From NCBI RefSeq assembly GCF_003340475.1, contig NZ_QBKA01000002.1:505501-569500 (forward strand): DNA of 64,000 nt. Reading direction: 5' to 3'. The notes below the pieces were generated by a model. It saw nothing but the letters and a program-made list of their open reading frames with translations, was not told the DNA's origin and did not search any database. This stretch comes from Alteripontixanthobacter maritimus (GTDB taxonomy: Bacteria > Pseudomonadota > Alphaproteobacteria > Sphingomonadales > Sphingomonadaceae). Position numbers and translations under genes: made by a program. Shown here in pieces: positions 53,329 through 64,000 of this stretch (its first letter is position 1; each line of letters begins with the position of its first letter).

Positions 53329-54581
53329 TGGTTACGCCCGCCCCGACATCTGGCACCGGCGCATGTAGTCAGGCCATGGACAGCGTAGCCAGTGGGGTTG
53401 GCGCGTCGCTGCGGGCGGTGGACTGCATGGCAGGGGAAACCGCAGCCGCCGCTTTCTCGCGCCTTTTCGCCCCCGGCGGATCGCTGGCCCCGGTGCTGAC
53501 GATCCTGCTGACCCTGTATGTCGCGTTCTTCGCCATATCGCTGCTTACCGGGCGCAGTCGGCTGGGTATTTCTGCGCTGACGCCGCGTATGTTGACGCTG
53601 GGGCTGGTGCTGACATTCGTGACCAGTTGGGTGGCTTACCAATCCTTCGTCTGGAACCTGCTGATCGGTGCGCCGGACTATCTGGCGTCGCTGCTGACCG
53701 GCTCGGAAGGGTCCGCCACCACGGTGTTTGCGGACAAGATCGACGTGGTGTTCGTGGCCATTCAGCAGGCAAGCGAAAGCACATCCGGCAGTGCAGCCGG
53801 ACCCAATGGCGCCGAAAGTACCGACGTGTCCGCATTCTCGCCCGCGGGGATGATGTGGCTGGGCGCGATGATGTTGCTGCTCGGCACGGTAGGCGTGCTG
53901 GTAACCGCGCGCATCGCATTGGCCGTACTGGTGGCGCTTGGGCCTGTATTCATCGTGCTGGCGTTGTTCGGCGGCACGCGCGGGCTGTTCACCGGCTGGC
54001 TCAAGGGTGCGGTGATGATGGCTTTGGTGCCGTTGTTCGCGGTGCTGGGCGGCGGGGCCATGCTGGAACTGGCAGTACCGATCATCGGCGCGCTGACGCA
54101 GAATGCAGGCCAGCTCAATCCGCAGGCGGCTATGGCGTTCTTTCTGGTCGGGGCGGTTCACATCGCGTTGATGGTCATGGTGATAAAGGTCGCCGCGACG
54201 ATGGTTGCAGGTTGGACCGTATTCGGGCTGGTGCCGGACAAGGTGGCAGAACGGCAAACGGAACTGCTGTCGCAGCCCGTTCCTGTCCAGCAGGCAAACA
54301 CTATTGCAGCCCCGGTTCAGGCTGCCGGAGCAAATGCCGCAGCGCGCCGGATTGATATCGCGGCCATTCCGACCGGCGCGGCTGCGAACGATACGTCGCC
54401 GGCCAGCACCTCTGCCGGTGGGAGCGCTACGGGAGGTGGGTCGGGCGGCGTAAAACGGGAAGTCACGATGATGGCAGCCGCTGGCGGACCCGCGCCTGCG
54501 CCAACATCGGATTTGCGTACGCGCGGTATCGGCAATCGCTTCCGCGCCGCACCGCCGCGTTCAACGGAGAAGATGAGATGA
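53328..54581 (+). CDS. virB6: Type IV secretion channel component VirB6 (TrbL-like)
   Basis: 417 residues with about six membrane helices (roughly 45-70, 85-110, 175-205, 210-235 and later ones) and a central periplasmic loop, the VirB6 pattern. The C-terminal third is Ala/Thr/Gly-rich and soluble. The usual next gene in a vir operon, virB8, is missing; virB9 begins 4 bases before this stop. Confidence 0.82.
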   Translation: MVTPAPTSGTGACSQAMDSVASGVGASLRAVDCMAGETAAAAFSRLFAPGGSLAPVLTILLTLYVAFFAISLLTGRSRLGISALTPRMLTLGLVLTFVTSWVAYQSFVWNLLIGAPDYLASLLTGSEGSATTVFADKIDVVFVAIQQASESTSGSAAGPNGAESTDVSAFSPAGMMWLGAMMLLLGTVGVLVTARIALAVLVALGPVFIVLALFGGTRGLFTGWLKGAVMMALVPLFAVLGGGAMLELAVPIIGALTQNAGQLNPQAAMAFFLVGAVHIALMVMVIKVAATMVAGWTVFGLVPDKVAERQTELLSQPVPVQQANTIAAPVQAAGANAAARRIDIAAIPTGAAANDTSPASTSAGGSATGGGSGGVKREVTMMAAAGGPAPAPTSDLRTRGIGNRFRAAPPRSTEKMR

Positions 54582-55426
54582 GCCGCCGTTCCGTACCCTT
54601 TCGCTCTGCAACATTCGCGGCCTTGCTCTGCGCGGCGATGCTGTCCGCGCCCGCCGCCGCCGATCCACGGCTGGTGGAACGGATGTACGATCCGTCCGAA
54701 GTGGTCCAAATCTTGGGCAAGCCCAAAGTGCAGGCGACAATCCAGTTCGGCGAGGGGGAAAGCATTGAAAATGTCGCCATTGGAGATTCGCAGGCATGGC
54801 AGGTGACACCCAACAAACGCGCCAACCTGCTGTTCGTAAAGCCTTTATCCGCTAATGGTTCCACTAACATGACCGTAGTGACCAACAAGCGGACGTATCT
54901 TTTCGATCTCGTATCCAGCCCGCGCAATCGGCCCATCTACGTAATGAAATTCCTCTACCCGCCGGAGCCGGAAGAGGCCGAACCGCAATTGGCGGAAGGC
55001 AATCTTCCCGGCGCGACTGAAGCGGAACTGACGGCCGCGCGCGATCCCTATGCCGTAGTCGATCCAGCCAATCTCAACTTCGCATGGAAGCGCGAGGGTG
55101 ATGCGGCACTGCTTCCGGTACAGGCTTTCGACGATGGCGATGCGACCTTCCTGACATGGGCCGGTGGGGCCGCGGTTCCGGCCATTCTCGTCACCGATCA
55201 GAAGGGTACCGAAGGCCCGGTGAACTTCACTGTGCGCGGAGATACGATCGTTCTCAACAGCGTGCCGCCCTTTATCATCCTGCGGTCTGGGCAGGACATG
55301 GCGAAACTGACGAACACCGGCCCCGTACGGCCTGCACAATCGCCTCGAACAGCTGCGTCGCCTGCACGTACACAATCCGCCGATGGCAGAACCAGCCAGA
55401 TTGCAACGCCTGAAGGGAGCAGCTGA
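54578..55426 (+). CDS. virB9: Type IV secretion outer-core protein VirB9
   Basis: 282 residues with a signal peptide (cleavage near residue 28, AAA|DP). The VirB9/TrbG pattern is visible in WQVTPNKRANLLFVKPL and in the C-terminal beta domain (LPVQAFDDGDATFLTW, then VNFTVRGDTIVL), which should form the outer-membrane core ring with VirB10. No VirB7 lipoprotein gene is seen in front. It overlaps both neighbours by a few bases. Confidence 0.9.
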   Translation: MSRRSVPFRSATFAALLCAAMLSAPAAADPRLVERMYDPSEVVQILGKPKVQATIQFGEGESIENVAIGDSQAWQVTPNKRANLLFVKPLSANGSTNMTVVTNKRTYLFDLVSSPRNRPIYVMKFLYPPEPEEAEPQLAEGNLPGATEAELTAARDPYAVVDPANLNFAWKREGDAALLPVQAFDDGDATFLTWAGGAAVPAILVTDQKGTEGPVNFTVRGDTIVLNSVPPFIILRSGQDMAKLTNTGPVRPAQSPRTAASPARTQSADGRTSQIATPEGSS

Positions 55427-56556
55427 TGCGTCTCGCCAACAAGATACCCGCCACGCCAGCGAATGACGAGGATCCGCGCGATACCGAAAGTGCAGAAGTC
55501 ATCGATCTGGCCAGCCGCAGCGCGTTCCCGGTCGTCACCCAGCGCAAGGGAAAGGGTGACGGGCTGGGGATGGTCGCCGGAATTGCCATCGTCGCCGGCC
55601 TGGGCGCGCTGACCCTTTGGAGCATGAACTCCACCAGGATGGAGGAACCGGCAAGTGTGGGCGGGCAAGTCGCCGCGCCTCCCGTCGCAGCCCAGACCAC
55701 CCAAACCGACTTGCCTGTGCCGGTGGCCGATGCTCAACCAGTCGCGCAGACATACGCTGCGCCGCAATATGATCCATCGCCGCAACCGGTCCTTTCCCGG
55801 GCGCCCGGCGCCTCGGTAATGCCCGTCGGTAACCCCTATGCCACGCCGACCATTGTGTTCGACGCCAGCGGAGCCGCCGGTGTCACGAGTGCAACGCCCG
55901 GGCTGGCTTCCCCCGCCGATGGTAGTGCGGCATCGAACGTAGGTTCGTCCGGAGGATCGATCGGTGATTTTGCTTCCCGGATCGGCGGTGTGGGCGGGGC
56001 GACCGCGCAAGCAACCGCGATGGCCAACCCCACCACCACGGTCACGCAGGGTACGCTGATTCCGGCCATTCTCGAAACCGCGATCGATACAGATGTGCCT
56101 GGCTATGTGCGCGCCATGGTGAGCCAAGATGTGCGTAGTTTCGACGGTACCAAAGTTCTCGTCCCACGCTCCAGCCGTCTGATCGGGCAGTATCAGTCTG
56201 GTGTGCAGGGCGGGCAAAAGCGCGCATATGTCATCTGGACCCGGCTGATCCGGCCGGACGGCGCTTCGGTCAACCTGGCGTCGCCCGCCATCGGTTTCGA
56301 CGGGACGACCGGGCTGCCAGGCAAGGTCGACAACAAATTCTTTAAACGGTTCGGATCCGCCATGTTGCTATCTGTCATCGGCGGACTGTCGGCCATCGGC
56401 AGCGGCGGCGCATCGGTAGTGCTGGGCGGGGCGAGCCAGTCTGCAGCTACGGTCGCAGCGCAGCAGGACAGCCAGGTCGGCCCGACCATTCGCGTGAAGC
56501 AGGGTGAACCGATCCGGGTATTCACCGCGCGCGACCTCGACTTCAGCGGCGTCTGA
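55426..56556 (+). CDS. virB10: Type IV secretion core protein VirB10 (TrbI-like)
   Basis: 376 residues: cytoplasmic N-terminus, one membrane helix (about 46-66), a Pro/Ala/Ser-rich periplasmic linker, then the C-terminal TrbI domain beginning near residue 205 (VTQGTLIPAILETAIDTDVPG). That motif and VPRSSRLIGQYQSG are characteristic of VirB10. The antenna helices that reach the outer membrane are in the region near 300-340. It overlaps virB9 by one base. Confidence 0.93.
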   Translation: MRLANKIPATPANDEDPRDTESAEVIDLASRSAFPVVTQRKGKGDGLGMVAGIAIVAGLGALTLWSMNSTRMEEPASVGGQVAAPPVAAQTTQTDLPVPVADAQPVAQTYAAPQYDPSPQPVLSRAPGASVMPVGNPYATPTIVFDASGAAGVTSATPGLASPADGSAASNVGSSGGSIGDFASRIGGVGGATAQATAMANPTTTVTQGTLIPAILETAIDTDVPGYVRAMVSQDVRSFDGTKVLVPRSSRLIGQYQSGVQGGQKRAYVIWTRLIRPDGASVNLASPAIGFDGTTGLPGKVDNKFFKRFGSAMLLSVIGGLSAIGSGGASVVLGGASQSAATVAAQQDSQVGPTIRVKQGEPIRVFTARDLDFSGV

Positions 56557-56569
56557 TTGCGCGGCCGGC

Positions 56570-57622
56570 ATGAACCAGACAATGCATGGAATAGTGCCAG
56601 CCGAAGACAATGCCGGCGTAGGGGACGTTCCGGCAGTGGAAGCCGTTCCCGAAGCGGGTCGGAGCGTCTATCTGGATGCCTACCTTGCGCCGTTTGCACA
56701 ATGGCTGGAACGCGATACCGTCACCGAAATCATGGTCAATCGCCCCGGCGAGATCTGGGTCGAGGATGCCAGCAATCCCGGCATGACCCGGGTGGAGGCT
56801 GCGGACATAACCGACCGGCTGGTGCAGCGCCTTGCCGAACAGGTCGCGCGCGTCAGCCATCAGGGCATTAACCGCGAACATCCTTTGCTGGGTGCAACCC
56901 TGCCCGGCGCACCAGGGCAAAGCGGCGCCCGTATCCAGTTTTGCGGTCCGCCTGCAACGCGCAAGCACTGGGCAATGGCGATCAGACGGCATCGGCGGCT
57001 CGACCTGCCGCTCGACGCGTATGACACCGGACCGTTGGGCAAGGCGCAGCCCGACCCGTTACCCGACGCGCAGCAAGAACCGATCTCGTTCCTGCATGAG
57101 GCGATACGGCAGCGCAAAACCATCCTGATTTCCGGCGGTACCAGCACCGGCAAGACGACATTTCTCAACGCAATGCTGGGGGAGATACCAAGTGGCGAGC
57201 GGCTGGTGCTGGTGGAGGATACACCCGAACTGAAAATGCCGGGCGCAAACGGCGTCGGTCTGATTGCAGTGAAAGGCGATACCGGCGAGGCGAAGGTTAC
57301 GCCCAATGAATTGCTGCAGGCGGCGTTGCGCCTGCGGCCGGACCGGATCGTGCTGGGGGAATTGCGCGGCGGCGAAAGCGTCAGCTTCCTGCGTGCAATC
57401 AACACCGGCCACCCCGGTAGCTTCTCCACCATTCACGCCAACAGCGTTCATGGAGCTCTGGAACAGTTGGCGTTGATGGTGATGCAGACCGGCATTGGTC
57501 TGACCCGCGCAGATACGCTTTCCTACGCCGCCAGCGTTATCGATGTGGTCGTGCAGCTGGGGCGCGACGGGCAGGGCAAGCGCGGCATCACCCAAATTTC
57601 GACAACCGACATGCTCGGCTGA
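56570..57622 (+). CDS. virB11: Type IV secretion ATPase VirB11
   Basis: 350-residue hexameric traffic ATPase. The Walker A motif is GGTSTGKTT (189-197), Asp box/Walker B are in LVEDTPEL and RIVLGELRGGE, and the His box is in TGHPGSFSTIHAN. The ATG at 56570 is chosen because homology starts at about residue 20; a longer frame begins inside virB10. It is the last gene of the vir operon. Confidence 0.94.
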   Translation: MNQTMHGIVPAEDNAGVGDVPAVEAVPEAGRSVYLDAYLAPFAQWLERDTVTEIMVNRPGEIWVEDASNPGMTRVEAADITDRLVQRLAEQVARVSHQGINREHPLLGATLPGAPGQSGARIQFCGPPATRKHWAMAIRRHRRLDLPLDAYDTGPLGKAQPDPLPDAQQEPISFLHEAIRQRKTILISGGTSTGKTTFLNAMLGEIPSGERLVLVEDTPELKMPGANGVGLIAVKGDTGEAKVTPNELLQAALRLRPDRIVLGELRGGESVSFLRAINTGHPGSFSTIHANSVHGALEQLALMVMQTGIGLTRADTLSYAASVIDVVVQLGRDGQGKRGITQISTTDMLG

Positions 57623-57663
57623 TTGGCTTGTTACAGGAATTAGGGTTAGGAAGCCGCCGGCGC

Positions 57664-57740
57664 GCGCCCGTAGCTCATCTGGATAGAGCGCGAGACTTCT
57701 AATCTTGAGGCAGCAGGTTCGAGTCCTGCCGGGCGCGCCA
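57664..57740 (+). tRNA. tRNA-Arg (TCT anticodon)
   Basis: 77 bases with all four arms. The acceptor stem GCGCCCG (57664-57670) pairs with CGGGCGC; the T arm is GCAGG/CCTGC; the anticodon loop CTTCTAA carries TCT at 57698-57700; and CCA is encoded at the 3' end. It reads AGA codons, which are rare in this GC-rich genome, and marks the junction with the accessory region, which begins immediately after it. Confidence 0.95.
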
Positions 57741-57813
57741 ATCGTTTGTGCATTTGCATTAGCGGTGCGCTGATCAAGCAAAAGAGTGCGCCGCAGGTTT
57801 GATATCGGTCCTG

Positions 57814-57862
57814 TCGTCTTTGGGACACTGCAATGACCGCAGGCTAAGTCGTTTAGGGACAC
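57814..57862. repeat. Pair of similar repeats resembling insertion-sequence end repeats
   Basis: GTCGTCTTTGGGACAC (57814-57829) and GTCGTTTAGGGACAC (57848-57862) are near-identical direct repeats 34 bases apart. On the minus strand they read as G-T-G-T-C-C-C followed by AAA and ACGAC. Multiple ~20-base terminal repeats of this kind occur at the ends of IS21-family elements, and I recall similar sequence beside sphingomonad IstAB elements. No transposase gene is visible in the adjoining 60 bases, so this would be a remnant. The 57741-57935 gap holds no gene. Confidence 0.35.
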
Positions 57863-57873
57863 GATGATTTTCG

Positions 57874-57903
57874 TTGGCCAATGGTGATGACGGAATTGGC
57901 CAA
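57874..57903. repeat. Inverted repeat TTGGCCAAT/ATTGGCCAA
   Basis: TTGGCCAAT (57874-57882) and its reverse complement ATTGGCCAA (57895-57903) are separated by 12 bases. Each half is also nearly self-palindromic. It could be a regulator site, a transposon or recombination end, or chance. It lies just upstream of the end of the minus-strand operon. Confidence 0.35.
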
Positions 57904-57935
57904 ACCGCTTTTGCGCTGCGTAAGTCTAGCTCATT

Positions 57936-58598
57936 TCAAAACGGCAACGGGCGCGCACGCTCTATAGCGCTCCACGCTTGATAAGCGGCGAAAAGACTAT
58001 CGCTGGTTTTCTTCCGCGCCCGCGACTGAATGTATCCAAGCCACAACAGATGCGCTCGCTCTGGCGCCAACCTTGCTGCCTGCAACGACCTCGCCTGGGG
58101 CGCGATAGGGAGTTTCATCCTCTCGGCGATCTCAGTCAGAGTCGAACCAGACAGGGTCAGCAAGGACATGCCGGACGGCTGCAGATCTTCAAGAAGCCGG
58201 ATGGAGGACACGAAAAAATCACCGGTCGAAAGCATCTCCTGCCAATCCCAGAAATCGCCATAGATGGCAGGCTGCCCTAGTATGATGTGCCGGTCGGCCG
58301 ACAGCTGCGCCAGACGCTCGCACAGCGCATCCGATCCTCCCATCCCCGCAGCCGAGAGATGGTAGGTTCTGAATGTCGGTTGGCCTCTATGGATGATGAC
58401 CTCGAGCGCGCCAAAACAGGTTAGAGATCGCTTTGGCGTCCGGGCGCTCTCTACCAAGACGATCGACAGCATATTCCGCGGAAGGTTACGAAAACCGTGC
58501 ATTCCGGTATGCACCTTCTGTGGGGGGGCGGTGACCGCGGTCGCCACTGCAAATCTAAGCGGCGCGGTCGACGCTCGGGAAACGATCGGTGAATGCAA
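57936..58598 (-). CDS. Unknown protein, last gene of accessory operon
   Basis: 220 residues if it starts at 58598; an internal ATG (58502, residue 33) would give 188 residues. I do not recognise it. The only shape I can suggest is a degenerate 3'-5' exonuclease-like alternation: L-S-I-V-L-V-E near the start, I-L-G-Q-P-A-I-Y-G-D-F in the middle and a C-terminal helical segment. The acidic catalytic residues of that fold are not evident. It overlaps the next gene upstream by 44 bases with the longer start, so it is probably co-transcribed. Confidence 0.5.
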   Translation of the reverse strand: MHSPIVSRASTAPLRFAVATAVTAPPQKVHTGMHGFRNLPRNMLSIVLVESARTPKRSLTCFGALEVIIHRGQPTFRTYHLSAAGMGGSDALCERLAQLSADRHIILGQPAIYGDFWDWQEMLSTGDFFVSSIRLLEDLQPSGMSLLTLSGSTLTEIAERMKLPIAPQARSLQAARLAPERAHLLWLGYIQSRARKKTSDSLFAAYQAWSAIERARPLPF

Positions 58599-59400
58599 GC
58601 TTCATGATGTGCTCGGTCAGGGCCCTCGTGCCACGCGCCTCAACCATCTTCGTCCACTCATCCCAGCGGTCGATGCGCTCTAGGAGCCAAAGGTAGAAGG
58701 CATCGCGTGCATAGCGATCGCCATCCTCCCACGACATCGACCAGATCGTGCTGCGAAGCGGGATCTCGTCCGTAACCTTGAAGCTGACGAGCTTCACAAT
58801 CGGACAATCATCGATGCTATCGGCAGCAAATCTATTCTTCATGCGCGAAGCCACGATCTCGCGCTCCGCAATCATGTCAGCAGCCTTTGTTCGGTCGCGG
58901 TGCGGGATGAACCCACGGTTCGCGCTGATCCAAGGCAAACCCACGTCGTTCTGGCTCTCTTCTTGTGAGCGCGTAGCAATGAGCATGGCAAGCACCGCCC
59001 GACCTTCGGGCGTCAGATCCTGGTTTGCCTTAATGAAACCAGCCGTGATCATAAAAGCGGAGAAAAATTGGTCGAGATGACCATCGCCCAGAAAAATGTC
59101 TCGGATGCGCTCCTGCTGGTCGACGAATCTGCTGTCATGCACTGCTAGGTAGGACATCATGAATCCGAGAACGGCATCGACCCAGCGATAGTGAAAATCA
59201 GGAAAGCCCAGACGCCCACTCCAAAAGGCTTCTCGGACTGAGCTCCATTGCCTTCCATCTTCATCAACGAGCGGCGGTTCGCCATGCACATTGCCCGAAG
59301 AGGTCAACCAGTATCCCCAAGGCAAGTCGGGGTGCCGGCCATTGCCGTATGCTTCCCCGTCCCAGCGAAGGGTCGATTCGAAGTAAGTGCGAACCATCAT
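58555..59400 (-). CDS. Unknown protein of the accessory operon
   Basis: 281 residues, no family recognised. It is rich in aromatics (W, F, Y) and carries repeated helical segments; PDLPWGYWLTSSGNVHGEP at about 24-42 reads like a conserved motif, and LTPEGRAVLAMLIATR at about 127-142 is a likely helix. No membrane segments or signal peptide. The start overlaps the upstream gene by 4 bases (ATGA), so both belong to one transcript. Confidence 0.55.
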   Translation of the reverse strand: MMVRTYFESTLRWDGEAYGNGRHPDLPWGYWLTSSGNVHGEPPLVDEDGRQWSSVREAFWSGRLGFPDFHYRWVDAVLGFMMSYLAVHDSRFVDQQERIRDIFLGDGHLDQFFSAFMITAGFIKANQDLTPEGRAVLAMLIATRSQEESQNDVGLPWISANRGFIPHRDRTKAADMIAEREIVASRMKNRFAADSIDDCPIVKLVSFKVTDEIPLRSTIWSMSWEDGDRYARDAFYLWLLERIDRWDEWTKMVEARGTRALTEHIMKLAFTDRFPSVDRAA

Positions 59401-60140
59401 CGCTCCTCCTTCGTAGGTGGTGGTAATGCGTGAGCGGCAGCCTGCGAGCGGCTGGCGGATTTACGATCCGAAACCTGCTTCAGCCGCTTCGCGAGAGCAA
59501 CGCAGTGTTCGTAGACGTAAGACTGGTCGCGATAGACATCGGATTTGCGCGGCGTGTGATGCGGATCGCCCGGTATGAGATCGCCGGCGTGATTGGTATC
59601 GAACCCGAGCCACCACAGCTCTTCGTGCTCGAATTCGTCCTCGGTGGTCTGGACGTTTTCATAGTCCTGAACCCAGCGCGTCCGGGTTGTATGGCAGACA
59701 GTGTAACGCTCCTGGCGAGGTTTGCCCTTGGCTCGAAGTTCGGTCCGATTGACTTCGCATTCTTTGCCGTAGGTAATTCCGCCATGGACTTGGTCTGAAA
59801 TGCCAAGGGGGACTGCAGCCGCATCGAAACCGTAAAGCGGATGGTCTGGGCCGACGCCGACGTAGCCTGAGAGTGTGCCGTCGGTCTGACGAAGCATGAT
59901 GCAGCCAAAGCCAGTGTGCTCGTCGACCCAAGCGACCTTGTCTGCTTCCCTATTCCACGGCCCATTTCCCTCGGGCTTACGCTCGGGGCTATGATAAACC
60001 TGCAAGGCCGTGATTGTCGTTTTCGCAACCGGGCAACTGACAGGGGCTACATTTTGTAAGCCATCTGGAATGTCACTTTCTTCCGCTAGCTTGATCTGGC
60101 GCTTTGTGGGCTTGGAATTTCGCCCTGTGAATTTGACCAT
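59397..60140 (-). CDS. Unknown protein similar to a phage/mobile-element family
   Basis: 247 residues, cytosolic. The motifs HPLYG, VHGGITYG, WWLGFDTNHAGDLIPG and a final YRDQSYVYEHCVALA match, from memory, a family of unknown function common in phages and mobile elements of alphaproteobacteria. The basic, Ser/Lys-rich ends look disordered. No enzymatic motif is visible. It is separated from the exonuclease gene by 57 bases. Confidence 0.6.
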   Translation of the reverse strand: MVKFTGRNSKPTKRQIKLAEESDIPDGLQNVAPVSCPVAKTTITALQVYHSPERKPEGNGPWNREADKVAWVDEHTGFGCIMLRQTDGTLSGYVGVGPDHPLYGFDAAAVPLGISDQVHGGITYGKECEVNRTELRAKGKPRQERYTVCHTTRTRWVQDYENVQTTEDEFEHEELWWLGFDTNHAGDLIPGDPHHTPRKSDVYRDQSYVYEHCVALAKRLKQVSDRKSASRSQAAAHALPPPTKEER

Positions 60141-60197
60141 AGGTCAATCTCCGCTTGATTGCGTTTCGTGATGATCGTCGAGATCAAGGTGGGTCGG

Positions 60198-61118
60198 CTA
60201 ACGGTATCGGCTGAATGCATTGCGTCGAGTGATGCGCGGCCCCATCGAAGTTGAGCCTTTACCGAAGGCGTAGATTTCGGTCGCCAACCACGCTTGTTCG
60301 GTCAGAAGCTGACTATCGCTCACTTCACGCCACCACACTCGCTCGGGCGCATTCCAACGGTAGCCTCGAGCTCGCAGCGCATCCTTGGTTTCGAAAGCAG
60401 AGCCGACCGCTTCGATAAGGTGGCTGTCAGCCAGTGCATTTTCGTTGAGCTGGTAGAGCAGGGGGCAGCCGTCGGTGTCCTCATGCTGAAGTAGCTGGAC
60501 TACAGCGTCGACATCGTTGAGAGCCCTATGGCCGTCGAAAAACCAGCCAGCCTGCATGGCCAGGTAACCAAGAGAGCGACCCTCGAAGCCGGCCGCTCGC
60601 CAATCAACCTGCTCTAACGAGCAAGCCCAGGGACGGCCCGGCATATCGGGCAGGCGCTTCTCCAGCATCGGTCGGTCGAAGGCTGCGTTGTGGGCGATGA
60701 TGAGATCCGCTTCGCCGATAATCTGTTGAACGATGTCATCGTCGACAAATTGCGATGCGAGATCCCCATCCGTCAGGCCTGTGAGCGATACGATCTCGGG
60801 CGACAGCGGAAAGCCGGGATCCTCGCGCCAAGTCCAGCCGCGTCCAATCTCAACGATGATACCATTATCGTCATAGCGGAAGCGCCGCATGGCCAGTTCG
60901 GTGATGACGTCGCTTTGCGCATCGAGACCGGTCGTCTCGACATCAACTACGAGAGCTGTCGTCGTGTGACCATCAAGATCGCCAAGCCGTGTGATACCCG
61001 TGCGGATGTCGATTTTCTGCAGGGTTCGAACATCGCCCGCGTCTGAGGGGTGATCTGTCACCGCCGACTGCGGGATTGCTTCGGCATGCTGGCTCGCGGT
61101 CGCGGTCATGCCAGCCAC
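60198..61118 (-). CDS. DEDDh 3'-5' exonuclease (DnaQ/RNase T-like) with extra C-terminal domain
   Basis: 306 residues. The exonuclease core carries DVETTG (about 58-63, Exo I), HNAAFDR (about 139-145, Exo II) and the H-R-A-L-N-D-V-D-A stretch (about 190-198, Exo III, with the catalytic His), so it should be an active single-strand exonuclease of the proofreading type. A C-terminal module (about 235-280) carries A-L-R-A-R-G-Y-R-W-N and W-W-R-E-V, a small domain seen in phage and repair proteins. It is a member of the accessory operon and overlaps the upstream gene by 13 bases. Confidence 0.87.
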   Translation of the reverse strand: MAGMTATASQHAEAIPQSAVTDHPSDAGDVRTLQKIDIRTGITRLGDLDGHTTTALVVDVETTGLDAQSDVITELAMRRFRYDDNGIIVEIGRGWTWREDPGFPLSPEIVSLTGLTDGDLASQFVDDDIVQQIIGEADLIIAHNAAFDRPMLEKRLPDMPGRPWACSLEQVDWRAAGFEGRSLGYLAMQAGWFFDGHRALNDVDAVVQLLQHEDTDGCPLLYQLNENALADSHLIEAVGSAFETKDALRARGYRWNAPERVWWREVSDSQLLTEQAWLATEIYAFGKGSTSMGPRITRRNAFSRYR

Positions 61119-61504
61119 TCCTCATTGGACTCTGCTAACGCCAGGCCATGTTCGGCGAAGATCGAGTTGAGCGTGGTCGGGGCGATATCAGCAGGAAGTC
61201 CCAATCCGTGCACGAGGATTGCGAGCGAGCACGCGTCCTTACGCCTACAGGCTTCGATGGGCGGCCATCCTGCGAAAAGGTCGGAGGCCGAAAGCATCCA
61301 ATCCATCGGATCCTGCGCCAAGCCATCACGCTGGAACCGAGCACCGGTTTCGGCAGCCACACAGGCGATACGCACGATATCGACGCGGTCGACCACTATG
61401 TAATCACCCCGCTCGTCATCGAGAGGATCGAGCTGCCAAGCATCTGTCAGCTGAGCTGGATCGCGGGGTTCGAAATTTGCATCGATGGTGAAGGTCATGG
61501 CCAT
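61106..61504 (-). CDS. Small protein, first gene of the accessory operon
   Basis: 132 residues from ATG 61504, which has AAGGAG six bases upstream; longer starts (61531) lack one. The segment DPMDWMLSASDLFAGWPPIEAC followed by ILVHGLGLPAD is a pattern I recall from small sphingomonad proteins encoded on mobile regions; it loosely resembles the Xre/MbcA-type antitoxin domain (DUF2384) but that link is weak. No catalytic motif is visible. Being first, it lies next to the divergent ArsR regulator, with 134 bases between. Confidence 0.6.
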   Translation of the reverse strand: MAMTFTIDANFEPRDPAQLTDAWQLDPLDDERGDYIVVDRVDIVRIACVAAETGARFQRDGLAQDPMDWMLSASDLFAGWPPIEACRRKDACSLAILVHGLGLPADIAPTTLNSIFAEHGLALAESNEEWLA

Positions 61505-61567
61505 CGCTCCTTTGCATAAGGAACGGATCACCCGTCCTCATCTGGGAGCGCATATAGCGCATAACTA

Positions 61568-61595
61568 CAATACTACAACCATAATTGTATTATTG
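61568..61595. promoter_or_regulatory. Candidate operator for the ArsR-type regulator
   Basis: CAATACTACAA (61568-61578) and TTGTATTATTG (61585-61595) form an inverted repeat of 11 bases with one mismatch and a 6-base spacer. It lies between the divergent starts at 61504 and 61639, in the most AT-rich stretch of the region, which is also likely to hold both promoters. ArsR-family repressors bind imperfect palindromes of this size. The link is inferred from position and symmetry. Confidence 0.55.
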
Positions 61596-61638
61596 AATTA
61601 ACTTGTCGGTCCGGCAGCGCTTCGCTATTGATAGGAGA

Positions 61639-61941
61639 ATGGAAAAAGTGGAACTGTCGAACCGGCTGAGCGCCCTGGGGCATGAGACGCGATTGAAGAT
61701 CGTTCAAGCTCTCGCCGAAAGACCCGAAGGCATGTCGTCGACTGACATTGCCGAGCATGTTGGCGTGATGCCCACCAATACTTCATCCCACTTGTCCGTC
61801 CTGCGAGCCGCAGGCTTAGTGTCGTCCGAGAAAAAAGGGCGGGTTGTGACTTATCGATTGGAAACCGAGATTCTCAAGTCAGTGCAAGCCAATATCGGAA
61901 CGCTGACGAAGAACCACTCAAACGTTTCCAAAAATGCGTAA
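61639..61941 (+). CDS. ArsR-family transcriptional regulator
   Basis: 100 residues from ATG 61639, behind an AGGAG; a longer frame opens at 61603. The winged helix-turn-helix of the ArsR/SmtB family is visible as LSALGHETRLKIVQALAE (about 7-24) and TNTSSHLSVLRAAGLV (about 45-60), with a wing at about 63-72. No metal-site C-V-C motif is visible, so it is not the arsenic or zinc type; it probably senses another signal or acts as a plain repressor. Divergent from the five-gene operon. Confidence 0.88.
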   Translation: MEKVELSNRLSALGHETRLKIVQALAERPEGMSSTDIAEHVGVMPTNTSSHLSVLRAAGLVSSEKKGRVVTYRLETEILKSVQANIGTLTKNHSNVSKNA

Positions 61942-62056
61942 CAGTAGCGATCAAAATTTCTGTTCCCGGGAACTCATCATCTGGTCGCAGATGATCCGAC
62001 GACATTGATTGCCGTTCAAACCGGAACACAGGTTTCCCGGTCCGGCTTCGACGCCT

Positions 62057-63598
62057 TCACGATGACTGACGTAATCCAAAAAGGAGATTACCCAGTCCAA
62101 TCTTCCCGATCCCAGTGGCCTCCCGCCGAAAATCATCAACGAGTAGTTCGTTCATCTGCGGGGAGCTCGCCGGATCTATGTAGCTATGCAGAACCGTAGC
62201 TTTACCAAGCGACAATTCGCATGCGTCTTCCCCGAGGGTGAGGCGTTCTACAGGAAAGGCGAGCAGGACAGCAAATTTGAAGTCGCCGACCGTGGACACG
62301 GCAAATCCAACCGCTTGGTCCACTTGAGAATCAATTTTCGTGCCTTCGTGTAACTCGGCTTGGACCGAGGCATCCGAGGCGGCCAATACAGCTTCCAAGA
62401 GATGCAGATCCTCGCTTTCGTTTATGTCAGCCAGCGAGACTAATGGCTGGCTCTCAAGGTCACAGGTTAGGGTTGCGAGAAATCGCACGCGCTGAACCAG
62501 CTCCGGTGGGAGCGCAGTGTCCAATCCGCTACCGACGCTTCCTGTGAAGCCGAAAATCCGTTTGTCTTCGACCGTCACCGTAAAGTCGATCGGTCCTTGA
62601 TCCTGCCAAGAGAGGATACGAATTTTTCCCTCAAGATCGCTCAGCCGAAACCGCTGCGATCCGTCGAAGTTCGAAACAAATGAAGATTGCCCATCGCTGC
62701 GATGAACAAGCTCGAACACCGGTGTGCGGATTCGGAATGCCCAAGGGTCTCGCTCGCCTTTACCTGCGGATGCGGAGAAGACTTCGCCGTTCACCGTCAA
62801 TACCGATCCGTCAGGTCCTCTGGCGCGGACCCGGCATGCTGCTACCGGGCTTGCGTGCATCGACGCGTGCGCAATCGGCCAATCTGGAATTGGTAAAGGA
62901 ACGTCGACGCCGAAGCGTCTATCCGCCAAGCGGACGCTTTCCAATGGGATGCTCGGCGTCAGGCCGAGTTGATGATTCAACAGGGTCCACACAGAATCTA
63001 ACGGACCAATTCGAACATCGCCTACAAAGCGATCTGTCTGGTATCCCAAAGTCTCCAAAAGACCGTGCTTGACACTCGCATAGTCCTTTCCGCGATCAGT
63101 GAGTGACCGACGAAGTGTGGCAATCAGTTGTTCCGGTTCAATTCGCTCATCCTCGGTCAACGCGATAGTGACTGTCCTGCGAGCGAAGTCATCTTCATCA
63201 ACACCCCGCACAGAAAGCGTCCGGACCTTTTCCAGAATGAGGGTCATCTCGTCGGCCCACCAATGTCGCAGCCGAACGACAGGTTCGAGACCATCGCGCA
63301 TAGTGATGTGAACGATGAAGAAAGGATCCAGCGAGCGCGTCATCCGCAAGGCGTTCGAAAGACTAATGCGGGCAACCGCTCTATCCGATTTCGTCGTGGT
63401 CTTGGTCTGCACGAAGATGGCTGGAAGATCTCGCCGGAGGTCCGCCGATGCAGCGAGATTGTCGCCCTCGTCGAATTCGACGACGTGGTCCCATCCCTTG
63501 TTGTCCTCGATGCTCGGATTGCAGCTGGCACCACCGGGAAAGCTGGCCACAAGTTGCGCGAAGTAGCGCTCGCCAAATTGTCCGATTCTCTGAGGCAT
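62057..63598 (-). CDS. Large protein with a predicted nuclease-like N-terminal domain (DUF4365-like)
   Basis: 513 residues. The N-terminus (about 6-75) reads I-G-Q-F-G-E-R-Y-F-A-Q-L...G-W-D-H-V-V-E-F...V-Q-T-K-T, the E...D...QxK arrangement of PD-(D/E)XK-type nuclease domains such as DUF4365 and Mrr-like restriction proteins: E10, D37 and Q66-x-K68 are the candidate catalytic residues. The rest (about 80-513) is a mixed domain with no recognised motif. Such fusions are common in defence and mobile-element genes. It converges on the ArsR gene, with 115 bases between, and diverges from the gene at 63702. Confidence 0.65.
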   Translation of the reverse strand: MPQRIGQFGERYFAQLVASFPGGASCNPSIEDNKGWDHVVEFDEGDNLAASADLRRDLPAIFVQTKTTTKSDRAVARISLSNALRMTRSLDPFFIVHITMRDGLEPVVRLRHWWADEMTLILEKVRTLSVRGVDEDDFARRTVTIALTEDERIEPEQLIATLRRSLTDRGKDYASVKHGLLETLGYQTDRFVGDVRIGPLDSVWTLLNHQLGLTPSIPLESVRLADRRFGVDVPLPIPDWPIAHASMHASPVAACRVRARGPDGSVLTVNGEVFSASAGKGERDPWAFRIRTPVFELVHRSDGQSSFVSNFDGSQRFRLSDLEGKIRILSWQDQGPIDFTVTVEDKRIFGFTGSVGSGLDTALPPELVQRVRFLATLTCDLESQPLVSLADINESEDLHLLEAVLAASDASVQAELHEGTKIDSQVDQAVGFAVSTVGDFKFAVLLAFPVERLTLGEDACELSLGKATVLHSYIDPASSPQMNELLVDDFRREATGIGKIGLGNLLFGLRQSS

Positions 63599-63701
63599 CG
63601 ATGAGCCTATAGAGACAACTCAGGGGCGAGCGAAGTTTGATCATCGTGCACGAGAGACGCGCTCATTTGCTTATTGCCGCCAGCCAAGCCATCTGCGTGG
63701 C

Positions 63702-64000
63702 ATGGAATTGGAAGCGATGACGACAGCGGGAGCCGTGCTCGATATTGAAGCACTAACGCGGGCGAACAGCCGGCTGTGTCGACGACTGCGAAAGCTGGAT
63801 CGAAACTTGACTTGTGGCATGATCGCAGGGCTGATGCTCGATCCGGGCCAACAAGGCGGTATTCTTCGGCTGGAAGTGCTCGCCCACCTTGCGGCCGCAC
63901 ATTGCAATGGTCACGGAGAGCCCACGGCGGGGCGGATCCGAGATTTCCTCAACGATGATCTTGCGCGCGGGGCCGTTTGGCGTCTGGAGGATCCCTCTGA
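63702..64000 (+). CDS. N-terminal part of an unknown protein (cut by window edge)
   Basis: The frame is open from ATG 63702 to the end of the window (about 99 codons visible) without a stop. The translation is alpha-helical and protein-like: N-S-R-L-C-R-R-L-R-K-L near residue 21 and G-G-I-L-R-L-E-V-L-A-H-L-A-A-A around 56-71, then G-E-P-T-A-G-R-I-R-D-F-L-N-D. I recall similar N-termini in unnamed proteins but no function. No clear ribosome-binding site precedes the ATG. It is divergent from the nuclease-like gene with about 100 bases between. Confidence 0.5.
   Translation, partial: MELEAMTTAGAVLDIEALTRANSRLCRRLRKLDRNLTCGMIAGLMLDPGQQGGILRLEVLAHLAAAHCNGHGEPTAGRIRDFLNDDLARGAVWRLEDPS

Follow-up and report, generated by a model that had tools for sequence, protein, structure and literature searches.

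What occupies the 3' side of the tRNA-Arg(TCT) gene in Alteripontixanthobacter maritimus, and what purpose does the nuclease operon found there serve? The question was raised by a window of 64,000 nucleotides (the whole stretch of DNA analysed, positions 505,501 to 569,500 of contig NZ_QBKA01000002.1, G000:C2:505501-569500 in the survey numbering, from a genome of 2.68 Mb), near the end of which five genes, named E, D, C, B and A in their order of transcription, face a divergent gene, F, for an ArsR-family regulator. A first-pass annotation of this DNA had suspected here a tRNA-linked mobile island with a possible defence system. Three further stretches of the same contig were added, their coordinates (above 64000) being those of the window continued, and relatives were sought mainly in a survey of 296 genomes of the order; genomes are numbered with the prefix G and loci with the prefix L. 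It is practically certain that a Tn7-like transposon, which carries the operon, has inserted at this tRNA gene. The sequence comparisons give about an even chance that the operon is an ArsR-repressed immunity module, centred on a DEDDh exonuclease and spread by tRNA-homing Tn7-like transposons.

A Tn7-like transposon beside tRNA-Arg(TCT)

The tRNA-Arg(TCT) gene (57664-57740, plus strand; found by ARAGORN and by the Rfam tRNA model at 66.9 bits) is the attachment target, is intact after the insertion and is the single tRNA in the 57 kb scanned. The transposon starts 6 bp past its end and spans 57747-86833 (29,087 bp), with its first 6,254 bp, the left fifth, inside the window. That a Tn7-like element lies at the 3' side of the tRNA follows from its ends, its target duplication, its transposition genes, empty sites in other genomes and a second element with the same tRNA and the same 6-bp spacing. 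The left terminal inverted repeat, TGTGCATTTGCATTAGCGGTGCGCTG (57747-57772, plus strand), has a right partner ending at 86833. The terminal sequences themselves are TGTGCATTTGCATTAGCGGTGCGC at 57747 and the reverse complement of TGTGCGGTTGCATTAGAAATGCGC ending at 86833, and outside both lies the 5-bp target-site duplication TCGTT, the left copy at 57742-57746 and the right copy at 86834-86838. A scan for TGT...ACA pairs between the tRNA end and the stretch past tniQ gave nine candidate pairs, of which the true one agreed at 19 of 26 repeat positions and 5/5 duplication bases and the runner-up at 9/26 and 3/5. The repeat core TGCATTAGNNNTGCGC occurs exactly only at the two transposon ends in the 57 kb; where arrays of TnsB sites might lie, each end has a single core copy with no mismatch, and copies with three mismatches are scattered, some of them outside the element. 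The change of sequence straight after the tRNA that the first-pass annotation had noticed is thus the transposon boundary, and is also seen in base composition (57.2% G+C in the transposon vs 62.5% in window positions 1-57000).

The transposition genes lie towards the right end. A TnsA-like protein (80101-81000) has no Pfam match, and its relatives occupy the TnsA position in other elements. TnsB (81338-83677) matches rve (PF00665) at E 9e-6 with 26.3 bits, under the Pfam cut-off of 32.6, and its relatives at 40-67% adjoin relatives of tnsC and tniQ. TnsC (83726-84796) matches TniB (PF05621) at E 1e-9 with 38.3 bits (cut-off 22.4), and TniQ (84796-86655) matches PF06527 at E 6e-5 with 24.2 bits, under the cut-off of 27, as well as the PADLOC TniQ model at 3e-7. 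Beside these genes stands a related pair, p339 (77350-78369) and p380 (78374-79516), with relatives beside tns genes elsewhere; the family profile of the pair also recovers TnsB, and by eye the two resemble TnsB paralogues that lack the catalytic core. A small protein encoded at 74969-75448 within the transposon resembles, again by eye, a DUF4065/Panacea-type antitoxin. Mobility at the tRNA had been correctly foreseen. The expected integrase and repeat of the tRNA 3' end at the far side had not: in their place is a Tn7-like element with a 5-bp duplication. A tyrosine-integrase island was rejected, no word of at least 11 bases from window positions 57650-57760 recurring in 57770-92000, and Pfam gave no integrase for any of 18 island proteins, the remaining ones being judged by eye only. 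Genes resembling virB9, virB10/trbI and virB11 (54578-57622) end just before the tRNA and lie outside the transposon.

Elements of this general kind have been described. Benler et al. reported Tn7-like elements that integrate downstream of tRNAs (PMC8649781, in the portion of the text available), and in the available portion of a second paper homing to tRNA-Leu is demonstrated, with insertion 30-33 nt downstream, and tRNA-Val is named (PMC10293859). The present transposon shares with the known tRNA-homing TnsD/TniQ elements an rve transposase, a TniB-type ATPase, TniQ, TGT...ACA ends and a 5-bp duplication and, as far as those portions describe them (PMC8649781, PMC10293859), a site just downstream of a tRNA and defence cargo. 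It differs from them in that the target is tRNA-Arg(TCT), 6 bp past the tRNA end, both here and in the element of genome G390, and from known Tn7-like transposons in that a single core repeat was found per end and in the presence of p339 and p380.

The target site was followed into other genomes by searching 40 of them for the tRNA together with its upstream flank. This gave 30 loci, of which the window's own is one and 29 lie elsewhere. In two of these 29 (L141 of G304 and L143 of G177) the nudix gene found past the window's element comes within ~150 to 230 bp of the tRNA with no element between, and these are therefore empty sites; the remaining 27, whose 1.5-kb flanks contain no match to that gene, are uninformative on the point. 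TniQ relatives were present in 17/249 genomes of the family. That of G390 (32-33% identity) closes an element of 20,161 bp which starts 6 bp past tRNA-Arg(TCT), with 21/26 repeat matches, a TTCCG duplication and no operon gene in its cargo. In G100 the same tRNA is followed by an A gene, the C-terminus of a TniQ (57%) and an end-like repeat with three mismatches, probably a decayed relative that once carried the same operon. The scan that succeeded for the window and G390, the only elements with verified ends at a tRNA, did not find the ends of the elements of G044 (tRNA-Gln) and G290:C25 (tRNA-Phe), and homing to tRNAs other than Arg(TCT) thus rests on position. A tRNA was present in the fetched stretch of 11 of the 25 loci with an ArsR-E pair that were scanned: Arg(TCT) in L125, Cys in L042, L045, L046 and L120, Phe in L039, L121 and L129, Gln in L062, Lys in L047 and Gly in L131; L132 holds a tmRNA. 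Since a genome has ~50 tRNA genes and the stretches were up to 19.5 kb long, ~7 of the 25 would be expected by chance, and the evidence for a link between tRNA and E is weak.

The exonuclease operon and its relatives

The five genes lie on the minus strand and are tightly packed, with 4-bp overlaps between E and D and between C and B. Their proteins were compared with Pfam, NCBIfam, PADLOC (2023) and PHROG, matches being considered up to E 1. The first gene, E (61106-61504, 132 aa), belongs to no known family, with no match in Pfam, NCBIfam or PADLOC. The second, D (60198-61109), encodes a DEDDh 3'-5' exonuclease (NCBIfam NF006615, 273 bits, cut-off 207), and C (59397-60140, 247 aa) a phage protein of unknown function (phrog_2164, E 5e-23), both as the first-pass annotation had proposed. 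B (58555-59400, 281 aa), the partner of C, is of no known family and has one weak Pfam match (0.064), and A (57936-58547, 203 aa) likewise has no known family and no match in Pfam, NCBIfam or PADLOC. Among 34 D proteins of more than 240 aa, the five catalytic DEDDh positions are retained in 33, 33, 31, 33 and 33, and D resembles the PRK09182/NF006615 exonucleases in exceeding their cut-off and keeping these residues; it is unlike them in being the second gene of an ArsR-facing operon with E, C, B and A. By its family match D is the only part of the operon for which a chemistry can be predicted.

Gene F (61639-61941, plus strand) encodes an ArsR-family winged-helix regulator (NF033788, 77.7 bits, cut-off 55). 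It has the ArsR fold but no cysteine with which to bind metal, and is therefore not a thiol metal sensor. Between E and F lies a 28-bp imperfect palindrome, CAATACTACAACCATAATTGTATTATTG (61568-61595), which is a candidate operator. Of 24 homologous intergenic regions, 15 hold a palindrome with arms of 9 bp, no more than one mismatch and 4-12 bases between the arms; over 200 dinucleotide shuffles the number averaged 2.9 and never exceeded 6. The 8-mer AATTCAAT was common to 9 of the 24 (shuffle maximum 5), and kinship among the loci inflates both counts.

Co-conservation of the genes, which the first-pass annotation had put forward as a check, was borne out. Among the 296 genomes 24 carry B and 25 carry C, and every genome with B has C as well (Fisher 2e-34, uncorrected for kinship); only G044 has C without B, and none has B without C. 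E was found in 19 and A in 13. In a class-wide sample B was restricted to 2/210 genomes, both of the window's family, and titled relatives of C came from Tsuneonella, Alteriqipengyuania, Erythrobacter and uncultured Sphingorhabdus and Sphingomonas. Thirty-five stretches matched B; surroundings were taken for 20 and later for some more, together with five C loci. In all 25 loci L039-L063, which were picked by B or C, C is followed by B, and gene order is conserved down to ~30% protein identity. The set keeps its order in other genera too, and the operon is very probably one functional unit.

The full arrangement of ArsR facing E-D-C-B was found in the window and 11 loci (L039, L040, L042-L048, L062 and the viral contig L105), with A following in the window, L042, L044 (by tblastn), L046, L047 and L048. 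In others (L060, L063, L132 and the viral contig L116) the place of A is taken by an unrelated gene, X; the family profiles of A, X and B are mutually unrelated. E of L063 and B of L132 had been missed by the gene caller and were recovered by tblastn, and the ArsR of L132 was not seen. A second architecture, in ten loci (L053 ends at the contig end), consists of D, a DNA_pol_B_exo2 relative (D2), C and B without E or ArsR. The gene ahead was a relaxase or MobA/MobL in the three loci tested (L054, L055 and L059), and in L050, L051, L052 and L056 it is divergent and by eye something else. L054 (G000:C2:2588000-2607500) is a second C-B locus of the window's own genome, in which a MobA/MobL relaxase gene is followed by D, D2, C, B and A, and is probably a mobilisable element; after A come genes that by eye are XRE-like and Dam-like. 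In L041 and L049 C-B stands behind a ~1010-aa protein that looks by eye like a recombinase, C-B or D-C-B was found on the predicted viral contigs L117 and L119, and broken relatives occur in L056 and L135. Profile searches of viral contigs gave 11 C loci and 4 B loci. In the phage contigs L107, L110 and L111 relatives of C lie beside genes that by eye are RecT-, Cas4- and Sak4-like, a hint of a link to recombination. The idea that C and B are common plasmid genes was rejected, 72,556 plasmid records giving no match to C at E 1e-5 and one to B (Qipengyuania), and so was the idea of common phage genes, 50,697 phage records giving one weak match to C (E 0.05) and none to B.

E also occurs in eight genomes without C, and here the head of the operon is seen with another tail. 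In L123 an ArsR gene faces E and D, followed by a gene for a protein, y, an AAA gene, Multi_ubiq (2e-17), DUF6791/ThiF (4e-49) and X, with no C; L131 has homologues of y, AAA, Multi_ubiq and E1, plus X. Protein y carries the C-terminal domain of B: a single profile comparison gave 85% (E 6e-6), and the B profile finds y of L123 at 7e-7 and of L131 at 5e-5, with reversed controls at 26 or worse. With this tail in place of C-B-A, the ArsR-E-exonuclease head appears to be combined with interchangeable tails, and L123 and L131 possibly represent an exonuclease-ubiquitin-like operon. They resemble bacterial multi-ubiquitin/E1 operons (Pfam Multi_ubiq, DUF6791-ThiF) in the tail that follows the head; the window's operon is unlike these, having C-B-A in that place.

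Remote homology gave hints to the nature of the small proteins. Sequence profiles of the Protein Data Bank (PDB) gave best E values of 0.46 for gene E, 0.033 for C and 1.2 for B, and the idea that E is a DUF2384-type antitoxin was unsupported by Pfam or by the PDB profile search. The predicted models had a mean pLDDT of 70.8 (B) and 76.7 (C). In a second structural comparison C matched mostly secretion-chaperone or YbjN-type entries (Z 5.0 to 6.5, rmsd 3.5 to 4.9, 101 to 120 residues), and residues 76-141 of B matched, with Z up to 6.6, rmsd 2.4 and 63 residues aligned, structures that we take to be winged-helix; with every Z under 8 these matches are hints only. Against viral models C had four matches at E 0.001 or better, the top one being a DUF7448 protein of Gordonia phage Suerte.

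The operon has no name in the family libraries searched, in agreement with the first-pass annotation, and searches of the open-access literature did not list it by title or abstract. Its head-and-tail variation seems new; defence cargo on Tn7-like elements is already known.

Defence setting and competing explanations

The operon lies in defence-rich surroundings, in the window's element as at other loci, which agrees with the defence setting suspected at the outset. The partial gene at the end of the window (63702-64000, plus strand), at first regarded as unknown, is the N-terminus of an Upx anti-phage protein, whose full gene (63702-67418, 1238 aa) extends beyond the window and matches the PADLOC Upx model over its full length (4e-187, residues 13-1216); it adjoins the operon and is not a member of it. 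Between the two lies gene G (62057-63598, minus strand, 513 aa), which matches nothing in Pfam, NCBIfam, PADLOC or PHROG at E 1 or better and whose sole relative among gene-called loci is near the operon in L048. Its resemblance to PD-(D/E)XK nucleases is by eye only, and of the co-occurring nucleases claimed at first only D is supported. A cluster at 67454-71273 encodes QueC, a PfkB-deoxyribosyltransferase, an OGG-like protein and proteins of 126 and 232 aa, and homologues of this cluster adjoin C-B in L133. In Cluster 4 of the QueC family ~89% of neighbourhoods contain a PfkB-deoxyribosyltransferase protein, according to the available portion of PMC13329287. The element's QueC resembles that cluster, as there described (PMC13329287), in its CH(x)5CxxCxGCxK motif and its PfkB-deoxyribosyltransferase neighbour, and differs in occurring with OGG-like and further genes, elsewhere in the transposon than the operon. 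At 10728-15166 of L120 an operon that is by eye CBASS-like (CD-NTase, E2-E1, JAB and 2TM effector) stands directly beside E-D.

The neighbourhood of the head was compared with PADLOC (E 1e-10) over 27 ArsR-E-head loci, taking up to two nearest genes per side that were neither operon nor tns genes and at least 100 aa long. The 97 neighbour proteins matched 188 families, against 2 from 76 controls, 188 being a count of families rather than of matching proteins or, since many models overlap, of independent systems. Among 25 neighbour families listed were ZorD, Avs2, DpdE, QatA, SIR2, 2TM effector, SAVED and type I methyltransferase, most of them with a single matching protein. What the comparison demonstrates is the island setting, not a function.

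In the immunity scheme that we infer, F would repress the operon via the palindrome at 61568-61595 until a signal linked to infection released it. Recognition and adaptor roles would fall to E and to B with C, aiming or licensing D to act on foreign or damaged nucleic acid, and A or X would be an exchangeable last component. In the variant without C an AAA ATPase, a multi-ubiquitin protein and an E1 would take part with the B-domain protein, the head thus being wired to interchangeable tails. A wider proposal, to which we give somewhat less than an even chance, is a modular immunity platform in which a constant head (ArsR, E and DEDDh exonuclease) is joined to varied tails (C-B-A, C-B-X, or B-domain protein/AAA/multi-ubiquitin/E1/X) and spread in Sphingomonadales by tRNA-homing Tn7-like transposons.

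Several observations weigh against a defence function. The controls of the neighbour test were tRNA-side loci rather than other islands, and the defence neighbours may stem from common island cargo rather than common function. PADLOC (2023) has no model matching A, B, C or E up to E 1, and for D only generic DEDDh and PDC-S48 models; a Foldseek search of the B and C models against the PDB gave nothing at E 0.001 or better. The multi-ubiquitin tail was found in two places only, and metal-resistance-like neighbours were seen by eye at several loci. Two further arrangements fit a function in the mobile element itself: C-B preceded by MobA/MobL or relaxase genes and accompanied by D and D2 but not by E or ArsR, and E next to tns genes where D, C and B are missing. 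The second is seen in L122 and L124, where the 19.5 kb fetched hold ArsR-E adjoining tns genes but none of D, C and B, and in L128, where E alone adjoins tns genes, on a contig that begins 685 bp before it.

These last arrangements favour the chief rival, that E, C, B and the exonuclease serve the element by processing or protecting its DNA, tuning transposition or mobilisation, or countering host defences on entry. So does the linkage of E to TnsB. TnsB relatives occur in 35 of the 296 genomes, 16 of the 19 with E vs 19 of the 277 others (Fisher 3e-14), and 14 of 23 E places lie within 60 kb of one on the same contig (16 within 100 kb) where uniform placement would give ~1, these figures being uncorrected for kinship and contig breaks; among genomes with C and without E the frequency is 1/14, the background. 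The relatives of C near recombination-type genes of phage contigs (by eye) and C-B on viral contigs point the same way. Yet similar elements manage without the operon: of seven genomes with TniQ relatives that were inspected, G336, G370 and G390 have none of the operon genes within the ~40 kb taken and G433 has only an ArsR, so that these four elements do without it, G272:C8 having ended at a contig end. The operon is also found with unrelated mobility genes, and the neighbours of its head are defence-rich. On balance service to the element is a less likely explanation than immunity. A DNA repair operon that responds to stress or metals, is controlled by a metalloregulator and travels with resistance cargo is improbable: F does exceed the cut-off of the metalloregulator subfamily NF033788, and efflux or arsenate-reductase-like genes were seen by eye near some relatives, but F lacks cysteine, the patchy distribution (B in 24/296) is unlike that of a repair gene, and no metal genes were recognised by eye in the window's element. 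That the genes are ordinary island debris without functional unity could be suggested by the decayed remnant of G100 and the broken L056 and L135; it is contradicted by the near-perfect sharing of B and C, and conservation of order and catalytic residues to ~30% protein identity is not expected of debris, which makes this the least probable account.

What was an unexplained gene cluster is now a mobile element with defined ends and an evident insertion site. Within it attention is drawn to a conserved nuclease operon in which A, B and E lack any model in the versions of Pfam, NCBIfam and PADLOC used. If the exchange of tails, including that for a ubiquitin-like system, is true, control of a bacterial nuclease by protein conjugation would become a directly testable question.

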